Assembly: GCA_949297275.1 (NCBI GenBank)
Contig: CASFQR010000008.1
Coordinates: 1-35,062, forward strand
Origin: an uncultured bacterium
GTDB taxonomy: Bacteria; Bacillota_I; Bacilli_A; RFN20; CAG-826
Reading direction: 5' to 3'
Length of the DNA: 35,062 nt
The notes beneath the pieces were generated by a model. The model did not search any database, had not been told where the DNA came from, and worked only from the letters and a program-made list of their open reading frames with translations. The position numbers and the translations under genes are program-made. Positions 32,043 through 35,062 of the stretch are shown here, one piece after another. Position 1 is the stretch's first letter; every line of letters starts with the position of its first letter.

Positions 32043-34961
32043 TTAGATTTTTTCTAATGAATTAATAGCGAAGCGATTAGTAACATGATAAGTATTATTA
32101 ACGCCATTAATATTGAGGGTTATATCACTACCTGTGATAAACGAACCATTGACAATATTCACCTCGCTATAAGTCCCATCATTTTTTAATAAATAGGTGT
32201 GATTTTGATAAGCGTAAATAACGCCTTCATCAATGCTAAAAGCTCCTAAGATTGCGTCATTAACAAACATGTAATAATTACCTGTCGAGCCTTTACCAAC
32301 AAATAAATCATCATCAACATAGTAAGTTAAAGCCATGTTAGAACCTCGATAAGAGGCGCACTTAATGTAAACTGAGTAAGTACCATCATTATTATTATGA
32401 TAATAGGCCCCACCACCCATATCATAACTAACATACTCATAAATTAAGAATTGGTTAGTCGAAACATTAACTTCGATTTCCACATCATAAATAGATGTGC
32501 CGCCATAGGCATTATGTGAGCCAGTGAACAAATATGTTCCATCACCTAGCGTTTGACGAATATAGTTATTTCCTAATTCGATTAATTGATGATAGGTCAC
32601 CGCGTCATCACTGATATTATATTCTGTAATTTCTTCAGAATAAGTATATGTCTCTCCGTCTTCATTTAAAGTAAGACGATATTCGTAAACATCATAGGTG
32701 CCTTGACTTTCATAAGTATACGTATATGTAACATACACTTCTTCTTCGCTAAATGATGTCAATTCTTTTTCATCGGGCTTACCGCTATAAGAATTAGTGT
32801 CATAAGAATAATTTTCACGCACTAAGCCGTCACTATAAATCGTAAAATCACGTACACCTTCATCATCATTTAATTCAATCGTTTCATATTTTTTATCAAT
32901 GAAGGGCTCATCATAATCTCTTAAAAATGGCACTTTGGTAAATGTGATGGTGTGATCAATTTCACTATGAATTAAATCCATACCATTAACACCCACACTT
33001 ATTGAGGTTATCTTTTCATAACCTGCATCACCTTCACTAATATTGATGTCGCCGTTTTCATAGCTATAAGTAAATTCAATACCTTCAGCACTACCTTTTA
33101 AGGTTAAAACCCCAATTGTATTGGTGACAAAATCTAAACGATATTCACCGCTTTGATAATAACCAATTAAATCATTTGCTGGTTCATAGATAAATTCTGT
33201 CCCGCTAGCATCATTAGCATAGAAGGTAAGGTTTTCATCTTCATTAATACTTGCGTATGTATAACCCCAACCACCATCGACATAACTACTATCGGTTTCA
33301 AAATATAAATAATCGGTGAAATAATCATAGTAACCAGTGTTATAAGAATAATCGCTAAAATAGACATACATTGAACCATCATCTTGGAAATCAAATGTAC
33401 CAGCTGTGTAGTATGTTGGCACAAATAAGCCAGCAAAAGTGGCATAATTTGACCATTTACCATGTAAAGTTAAATCAAAGAATAATGGTAAATAGAAACG
33501 ATAAGATTGCGTTAATTCTTCATCGTAGAACCAACCATTAAAACTATAACCACTATAACTAGCGTCCACATCAACTACATCATAAGAATATTTATCGTAT
33601 GAAGCACTTTCTTTGGTGAAGACATCTAAATTAGTATCAAAACTAACCGTCGCGGAACCATCACTAAATTCTTCTTGATAATTAAGTGAGGGATAAGCAT
33701 CGCTACTATAATTCCATTCTTCACCGAAATGGATGTCCGCTAAATAGGCTTGGTCAACTAAACTACTAGAAGCAACTTTCGTCGTGTTATTAATATCTTC
33801 AATTACACTGCTACCGCACATAATTCGCGTTGAATTATTCACGCGGTTATTCATTAATAAAGTTTTATTAATCATGTATTCAGGATCATCTTCCATCGTA
33901 TAACTAGGAACAATGGAGGCGGAATATTCTTGATTATTAATCGCCGCACTTGAAACAATAATATTACTAGCGGTAACTACGCTTGACATAATAACCGTAT
34001 CATCAAAAGCAATCGCGGCAATTCCACCCGCGTAAGTACCACCTGCAACATTGCCGTTATTATAAGCAAAAGAGATGGTGGCATAATTATCTAAATAGGC
34101 GGTAATTCCACCAGCAGCATAAGCTCCAACAATTTCGCCATTATTAACGACATAGGAGATAGTTAATACCCCGCGGCCACTACTAGTATAAGAAGTGCCA
34201 AAAATCCCACCAACATAACTTGTTGGGGTATTATTTTCAATATCAACATCGGAAGTTAAAAAACGCATTTCCGTTGCAAGATATTGTGTGGAACCGTCTT
34301 CATAATATAAAGGAGTAACGGCATTAAAACCTACAACACCACCAATGACAACTTGTTGGGCCCCAGTATATTTAACATTGATTGATCCACTAACATTAAT
34401 ATTTTCTAATAAGCCATTATCTAAATAGGCAACTAGCCCACCAACATAAATAGATTGATTCCATAAGGCTGGTGTTAATTCAATATTAAAATCGGTGACA
34501 TTTAAATCCGTAATCACCCCATGGAAATGACCAAACAAACCATAATAGGCTTGCATCATTGGAGCGCTGGTAATTTTAAAATTAGAAATCGTGTGATTAT
34601 TACCTAAAATATGCGCACTAAAAATATGTTCAAAGTTAGCGTCAACATTTACCCCGATCGGTGTCCATTCTTGACCACCTAAATCAATATCGTTAGTAAT
34701 CGAATAATAAGGGGCATTATCTAGACTCGTCACATAATCCATTTCTAAATTATTCACAGCTTCGGCTAAGGCAAGTAGATCGTTAGCGTTTTCAATTAAA
34801 TAAGGATTTTCATAAGAGCCATCCTCAGTAGGAGTGATGCTTGTTGAAGGGGTGCTACTACCCTCACTACTACTCGACGAATTGCTGGTTGATTCGCCGT
34901 GTGGGCAACTAGACAAAACCATCATTAATAAGGGAAGAATAACGAATAATTTCTTTTTCAT
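32043..34961 (-). CDS. Large surface lipoprotein with GLUG and InlB B-type repeats
   Basis: 972 residues; signal peptide MKKKLFVILPLLMMVLSSC with Cys19, then CPHG and a Ser/Thr linker. Residues about 48-345 form a probable right-handed beta-helix with GLUG-like repeats: YYGLFGHFHGVI (139), YVGGLVAYLDNGLL (172), VIGGVVGF (205), YVGGIFG (249), AAGGITAYLDN (282) and YAGGIAA (310). An InlB B-repeat (Listeria-Bacteroides repeat) lies at about 436-503 with YSGYSFNGWFYDEEL and LTLHGKW. The rest (about 505-972) is Tyr/Asp-rich beta sequence without a recognised domain. These modules occur in adhesins. The nearest Shine-Dalgarno site is 46 bases before the ATG, and an in-frame TAA four codons upstream rules out a longer start. 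Confidence 0.87.
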   Translation of the reverse strand: MKKKLFVILPLLMMVLSSCPHGESTSNSSSSSEGSSTPSTSITPTEDGSYENPYLIENANDLLALAEAVNNLEMDYVTSLDNAPYYSITNDIDLGGQEWTPIGVNVDANFEHIFSAHILGNNHTISNFKITSAPMMQAYYGLFGHFHGVITDLNVTDFNIELTPALWNQSIYVGGLVAYLDNGLLENINVSGSINVKYTGAQQVVIGGVVGFNAVTPLYYEDGSTQYLATEMRFLTSDVDIENNTPTSYVGGIFGTSYTSSGRGVLTISYVVNNGEIVGAYAAGGITAYLDNYATISFAYNNGNVAGGTYAGGIAAIAFDDTVIMSSVVTASNIIVSSAAINNQEYSASIVPSYTMEDDPEYMINKTLLMNNRVNNSTRIMCGSSVIEDINNTTKVASSSLVDQAYLADIHFGEEWNYSSDAYPSLNYQEEFSDGSATVSFDTNLDVFTKESASYDKYSYDVVDVDASYSGYSFNGWFYDEELTQSYRFYLPLFFDLTLHGKWSNYATFAGLFVPTYYTAGTFDFQDDGSMYVYFSDYSYNTGYYDYFTDYLYFETDSSYVDGGWGYTYASINEDENLTFYANDASGTEFIYEPANDLIGYYQSGEYRLDFVTNTIGVLTLKGSAEGIEFTYSYENGDINISEGDAGYEKITSISVGVNGMDLIHSEIDHTITFTKVPFLRDYDEPFIDKKYETIELNDDEGVRDFTIYSDGLVRENYSYDTNSYSGKPDEKELTSFSEEEVYVTYTYTYESQGTYDVYEYRLTLNEDGETYTYSEEITEYNISDDAVTYHQLIELGNNYIRQTLGDGTYLFTGSHNAYGGTSIYDVEIEVNVSTNQFLIYEYVSYDMGGGAYYHNNNDGTYSVYIKCASYRGSNMALTYYVDDDLFVGKGSTGNYYMFVNDAILGAFSIDEGVIYAYQNHTYLLKNDGTYSEVNIVNGSFITGSDITLNINGVNNTYHVTNRFAINSLEKI

Positions 34962-34970
34962 AATATCGTA

Positions 34971-35021
34971 TTATTCAGTTAAGCCTAGTTTGATGACTGA
35001 ATAACTTCTCCTTTCTAGGCT
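34971..35021 (-). promoter_or_regulatory. Interleaved inverted repeats in the leader of the GLUG lipoprotein gene
   Basis: In the mRNA sense, stem A pairs AGCCTAG (35021-35015) with CTAGGCT (34988-34982). Stem B pairs TTATTCAGT (35004-34996) with ACTGAATAA (34979-34971). Both are perfect. Each has one arm in the other's loop, so they are either mutually exclusive or a pseudoknot. AAAGGAG (35014-35008) is in the loop of stem A. Folding stem B reduces its distance to the ATG from 46 to about 12 unpaired bases. Confidence 0.6.
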
Positions 35022-35062
35022 ATAATTTCTATATGCTGTGTACCTGTAGTTCATATTTGCCA

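Follow-up and report, generated by a model that had tools for sequence, protein, structure and literature searches.

Insertion sequences (IS) that land near genes are usually thought to break these genes or to add a promoter. The IS110-family element IS900 of Mycobacterium avium subsp. paratuberculosis has a target motif, CATGNNNNNNTCTCCTT, that is the reverse complement of a Shine-Dalgarno (SD) site followed by a spacer and ATG; PMC8141618 cites Doran 1997 on this targeting of translation initiation signals and describes IS900 as expressing its own complementary-strand hed frame from the host SD. In phage T4 a hairpin shortens the SD-AUG spacing of gene 25 from 27 to 11 nucleotides (nt) and that of gene 38 from 22 to 5 nt (PMC3014915). 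For IS621 (bridge RNA) and IS1111/IS110 elements (seekRNA), a noncoding RNA encoded upstream of the transposase carries a loop whose sides match the two target halves (PMC11208160, PMC11187229). The aiming of IS110 elements at translation starts, ribosome sites split by a hairpin and RNA-guided IS110 targeting are thus each known separately. The stretch analyzed here, referred to as the window, is the entire contig C8 (CASFQR010000008.1, assembly GCA_949297275.1, 35,062 nt) of an uncultured CAG-826 bacterium, whose genome is denoted G000. At its edge, a predicted lipoprotein gene has as its leader the left end of an element of the IS110 family, which has landed between the native SD and the start codon. 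The element breaks the ribosome site and probably supplies a folded, split site in its end, which is later kept as a host leader.

As in IS900, the element is aimed at translation-start signals, but here the host gene receives an SD from it and solitary ends persist as leaders; in the available part of that source, IS900 is not said to provide the gene behind it with a new SD and a hairpin. The likeness to T4 genes 25 and 38 lies in an over-long SD-AUG gap filled by a hairpin, here a covarying stem with a presumed effect on translation. Those are single phage loci, whereas here a mobile element carries the module to many genes, with a longer loop-out (46 to about 10–17 nt) and a second, interleaved stem. 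With IS621 and the seekRNA elements the locus shares a noncoding RNA, here predicted, in the long end and a two-sided target-binding loop; it differs in that RNA and transposition are putative here, that one guide looks like a ribosome-binding site and the other like a start codon, and that this end would also act in host mRNA. A limited literature search did not find the combination of an element that destroys a ribosome site and a folded substitute, brought by it, that persists as a host leader.

An element end between Shine-Dalgarno site and start codon

The features at the edge of the window are as follows; A1 and A2 are two alignments of related ends defined below, and solo leaders are element ends without a transposase.

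34966–35062, minus strand: IS110-family element, left (5′ noncoding) end, whose outward direction leads to the host gene and which extends past the contig end; assigned by 98% identical copies at two other contig ends, full elements in relatives and empty sites in the sister species
35015–35021, minus strand: stem A 5′ arm AGCCTAG; different sequences preserve the pairing in about 90% of 58 divergent ends
35008–35014, minus strand: element-borne SD AAAGGAG; AAAGG beside stem B kept in most divergent copies and solo leaders
34996–35004, minus strand: stem B 5′ arm TTATTCAGT; covariation, 98.1% (A1) and 97.1% (A2) paired
34982–34988, minus strand: stem A 3′ arm CTAGGCT, in the loop of stem B; pairing conserved
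34971–34979, minus strand: stem B 3′ arm ACTGAATAA, which shares bases with the conserved terminus ATAATACGA of the element; covariation
34966–34967, minus strand: junction dinucleotide GA, putative core, common to element end and target by comparison of empty and filled sites
32043–34961, minus strand: host gene, predicted 972-amino acid (aa) lipoprotein; native SD displaced, own spacer TATT left at 34965–34962
35021–35026, plus strand: TATAAT, candidate −10 box for either the bridge RNA or the transposase; kept as ATTATA on the leader strand of divergent ends, function putative
35035–35062, plus strand: start of a candidate bridge-RNA target-binding loop, cut by the contig end at 35062; complete in copies L028 and L029
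about 35047–35058, plus strand: putative start-codon-side guide TAGTTCATATTT within this loop, by comparison with L028 and L029

A preliminary description of the locus had drawn attention to a distant AAAGGAG, separated from the ATG (34961–34959) by 46 nt that contain a hairpin, and to a stem that competes for this space, and all of this reads as described. The nine perfect pairs of stem B leave 3 nt toward the SD and 9 nt toward the ATG, and the 3′ arm of stem A, a stem of seven pairs, falls within the stem B loop, where 2 nt separate it from the 3′ arm of stem B. In this clade, AAAGGAG is covered by neither stem. The structure exceeds chance: a perfect 9-bp Watson-Crick helix occurs in 0.2% of shuffled 55-nt leaders, and compensatory changes keep both stems in divergent copies. 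Single-sequence folding of the window copy alone is unremarkable (z = −1.07). A known RNA family was rejected as the origin of the leader, which is unmatched by the curated Rfam covariance models, the sole hit being at chance level and elsewhere. The gene had been called a GLUG lipoprotein; the N-terminus MKKKLFVILPLLMMVLSSC indeed reads as a lipoprotein signal, while the GLUG assignment found no Pfam match at E ≤ 0.001, where only a sub-threshold Flg_new stretch appears.

The last 106 bases of the window recur with 98% identity on two other contigs: the end of C23 has them ahead of a HIT-family gene, and the start of C9 ahead of a gene for an ABC sugar permease. The common block stops 4–5 nt before the ATG in each of these cases and in the window. 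Relatives carry the same end at 91–95% identity, and in the unbroken copies L017 and L020 (overlapping L028) the element is about 1.5 kb long and encodes, on the opposite strand, a transposase of 390 aa, which matches PF01548 (DEDD_Tnp_IS110; E 1e-33 and 1e-34, respectively) and PF02371 (Transposase_20; E 5e-23 and 7e-24). The left end consists of about 237 noncoding nt that precede this transposase. A group I or II intron or an IStron ending before start codons was rejected as the flanking protein is an IS110 transposase, and a viral origin of the repeat was rejected since a 40-mer gave no hit in viral contigs.

Right ends of the element in G000 lie at the end of contig C2, after a malF-like gene (GATAAAAGGAGA; from malF, AAAAGGAGA), and, on C29, at the contig start (TTAGGAGA). 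Contig breaks of G000 can be scaffolded through the element as C2-IS-C9 (malF/malG) and C29-IS-C23 (HIT gene), and synteny in the sister species G002 agrees; a partner contig of C8 across the element was looked for and not found. In G002 all three target genes have ordinary empty sites, AAAGGAGATATTATG, AAAGGAGATAGATATG and TAGGAGAAAATTATG, read likewise as GATAAAAGGAGATAGATATGAACG for malF-malG, ATAGGAGAAAATTATGAACG for the HIT gene and ACAAAAGGAGATATTATGAAAAAG for the lipoprotein gene. The lipoprotein orthologue (L178) reads AAAGGAGATATTATGAAAAAG, with a normal SD and without the stems. Its empty site is AAAGGAGA-TATT-ATG, and the lipoprotein gene therefore originally had an SD 5 nt from the ATG. 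Comparison of the empty junctions GGAGA/TATT, GGAGA/TAGAT and GGAGA/AAATT with the filled junctions GGAGA/TTTAAC and ATACGA/N, the slash marking the insertion point, shows that only GA is shared, which points to core-type insertion without a longer target duplication; for the lipoprotein gene of the window the junction data come from the left end only.

The same arrangement is found in the full copies, where the upstream host flank ends in an SD (AAGAGGAGA, TATGGAGGTA, ATAAAGGAG, TTTAAGGAG and others) and the downstream flank opens with a few bases and the ATG. The order SD, element, ATG is retained in elements with transposases just 42–57% identical, and the orientation is fixed, with the transposase antisense to the host gene and the insertion between SD and start codon. 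Among 47 non-redundant ends, 43 are followed by an ATG within the expected short distance, as against about 17% expected by composition. Of the four remaining ends, one is cut by its contig, one (L031) has a duplicated end and then an ATG, one is followed by GTG/TTG and one by none of these. Short tandem duplications at the element junction are seen in L031 (G068:C42; ACTAGGCTTAACTGAATAATACGA twice) and L047 (G144:C30; AAGGAGGCTAACTATTAAAGGAGGCTAACTATTA) and are perhaps traces of repeated insertion or excision.

Conservation of stems A and B

Covariation, which the preliminary description had proposed as a check, was followed in two sets of ends. A1 comprises 26 distinct ends that were not fitted to stem B, and A2 comprises 38 matches found with a stem-B model, 35 of them distinct and some overlapping A1. 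In A1, stem A is paired in 88.5% of cells, beside 98.1% for stem B, whole-structure covariation is 0.370 versus 0.198 in shuffled data, and sliding the partners lowers pairing to at most 44%. In A2, where stem B is paired in 97.1% of cells, both sides have changed in eight of ten pairs, with 70 double-change cells versus 21 in shuffled data; because A2 was aligned with the stem-B model, its counts lean to pairing and to G·U. Covariation of stem B amounts to 0.569 versus 0.289 shuffled, and G·U cells outnumber A·C cells by 34 to 4 on the gene strand. Stem B thus covaries strongly across about 60 divergent ends, in most of which AAAGG is kept beside it while the stem sequences turn over. The raw SD-ATG distance is 46–53 nt. 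The proposal that folding of stem B brings a remote SD to the ATG is therefore well supported by the compensatory changes in divergent copies and by the persistence of AAAGG next to the stem.

Stem A is formed by unrelated sequences in different ends (GCCTAG/CTAGGC, CCCGGG/TCCGGG, GGCCCA/TGGGCC, CCCTAG/CTAGGG, GCCCAG/CTGGGC) and is present in about 90% of 58 ends, whereas at least 5 bp are found in about 19% of shuffled loops. Interleaved with stem B it may form a pseudoknot or an alternative fold. A full classical pseudoknot with A and B stacked coaxially would be strained, with just 1–3 nt between the 3′ arms. Since stem A is also conserved, the two stems may alternate, as had been suggested. 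In one clade (L034, L211, L212, L214, L219) stem A includes part of GGAG in its 5′ arm and therefore could hide the SD there, which makes this clade the most promising one in which to seek a true switch. Furthermore, a long palindrome lies between a −10-like box and the SD module in L079, L084 and L089 (e.g. ATTATAACAGCTGGCCAGCTGTTATAAT).

A gene-specific translational switch of the surface lipoprotein, of phase or temperature type and operated by alternation of stems A and B, had been put forward for the window. Both stems are indeed conserved and interleaved, and lipoprotein or secreted-protein genes stand behind many solo leaders. As a device dedicated to one adhesin gene it is refuted: the same IS110 end precedes dozens of unrelated genes, among them the HIT hydrolase and the ABC permease, the orthologue in G002 has a normal SD and no stems, an outcome that the preliminary description had itself named as refuting, and several solo leaders (L221, L222, L226, L228, L229) keep stem B and lose stem A. 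Nothing in the analysis points to phase or temperature control, and we regard this switch as scarcely credible. A wider form of the idea, in which an RNA-guided IS lineage spreads a portable translational module and stems A and B act as a shared regulated switch over scattered host genes that persists after loss of the element, is doubtful, with a small chance of being right.

The insertion might also merely silence the gene, AAAGGAG and the hairpins being decoration kept by descent. The whole element does displace the native SD, and polarity from an antisense 1.5-kb insert would be plausible. Contrary to this, divergent elements and solo leaders retain stem B through compensatory change, together with the adjoining AAAGG, and the downstream genes stay long open frames, including some resembling cytidylate kinase, plsX and trpB by their N-termini, so that simple silencing appears very unlikely. 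The preferred reading is instead that the insertion displaces the native SD and that the element end, by AAAGGAG followed by hairpin B, would restore translation of the host gene. Hairpin B would loop out 34 nt including the recombination terminus, and the 30S subunit would use the new SD at about 10–17 nt, so that the gene stays translated. An SD and hairpin would be carried in the element end because the insertion removes the SD of the host; the SD could not simply be placed beside the ATG because the terminus must stay fixed for recombination, and folding the terminus into a hairpin would solve this constraint.

Putative guide segments and choice of the insertion site

The noncoding end is predicted to fold into a target-binding-loop shape, GCUGUGU.CCUG..GCCA/UGGC..CAGG.ACACGGC, in which one loop side resembles the SD side of the copy's own site and the other side the start-codon side. 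In permutations with host-only flanks, the SD-side guide fits its own flank better than swapped flanks with p = 0.0035 overall and p = 0.033 within clades, and the start-side guide with p = 0.003 and p = 0.005, respectively. One element, L035, serves as a natural control: it has a target that is not SD-ATG (GTTGTCAATT / GATGTGAA), and both of its guides match these sequences. Its end is devoid of AAAGG and stem B, and the longest helix with the terminus is 5 bp versus 10–12 bp in SD-targeting ends. The comparison thus supports an element-encoded bridge RNA, with an SD-side and a start-codon-side guide, as the putative determinant of the insertion site, in line with the scheme of PMC11208160 and PMC11187229.

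Stem B overlaps the terminus ATAATACGA, itself similar to a donor guide of the noncoding RNA, and the TATAAT on the transposase strand abuts stem A. Both features would suit a service of stems and AAAGGAG to the element itself, as recombinase docking, as promoter control of the bridge RNA or as DNA structure at the recombining end, with an incidental effect on host translation. We consider this distinctly unlikely: transposase-free solo leaders keep the SD and stem B with compensatory changes, G·U outnumbers A·C on the leader strand, AAAGG persists through the turnover of stem sequences, and L035 with its non-SD target is without stem B.

A sister IS110 clade (L040, L042, L046, L048, L050, L054, L056) has transposases 36–39% identical. 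Its host left flank ends in a TATAAT-like box and about 6–8 nt, and where the right host flank is present, an ATG follows the element after 1–2 nt; the apparent target of this clade is a −10 box with a start codon after it, as in leaderless genes. GATAAT, contributed by the right end, lies about 7 nt ahead of the ATG and perhaps restores the −10 box.

Solo leaders as probable remnants of insertion

At least 25 solo leaders, with no transposase in about 1–1.9 kb upstream, have kept AAAGG and stem B. They precede ordinary genes, namely lipoprotein genes, genes with N-termini resembling trpB and others, and in some cases the same gene stands behind a solo leader in two or three genomes (L222/L227/L228, L221/L229 and the L124–L128 group). 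Most of them are without a recognizable bridge RNA. Intermediate copies are either truncated with part of the bridge RNA (L137, L138, L139, L211) or decayed (L123). Because these copies bridge full elements and solo leaders, an origin of the latter as scars of old insertions is favored by the comparison. Because the gene depends on it, the element end would survive as a solo leader of the host after the remainder of the element is lost. The reverse order, in which host leaders had the split ribosome site first and an element captured it later, would make the solo leaders ancestral; they are indeed widespread and shared across genera before the same lipoprotein genes. The graded series from full elements through truncated and decayed copies to solo leaders speaks against capture, which we take to be unlikely, with an appreciable chance nonetheless.

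Several observations weigh against a split site that arrives with the element, restores translation and is then retained. The collapsed spacing is 12–19 nt with the 9-bp stem and 10–17 nt with an outer pair and thus exceeds the usual optima, and the SD is weak or overlaps stem A in L034, L211, L212 and L214. The within-clade support for the SD guide is modest, the leaning of the A2 counts described above has to be borne in mind, and the transposase of G000's own copies is not on its examined contigs. A conserved outward promoter was not found in the element end. The one candidate, a 10/12 match on the leader strand of L028, was rejected, being within shuffled expectation and not conserved by eye; a simple scan upstream of one solo leader gave no promoter either.

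An RNA-guided element thus appears to target the SD and start codon, the most universal signal of bacterial genes, and to repair the damage by a folded spacer. If true, this would explain how ribosome sites can be targeted genome-wide without killing the host. The roughly 60 divergent split ribosome sites would provide a natural set for the rules of SD spacing, and genes without an SD in such genomes risk being misread as leaderless or switch-controlled. For the element family, it would describe a route by which mobile ends may become permanent leaders of host genes.
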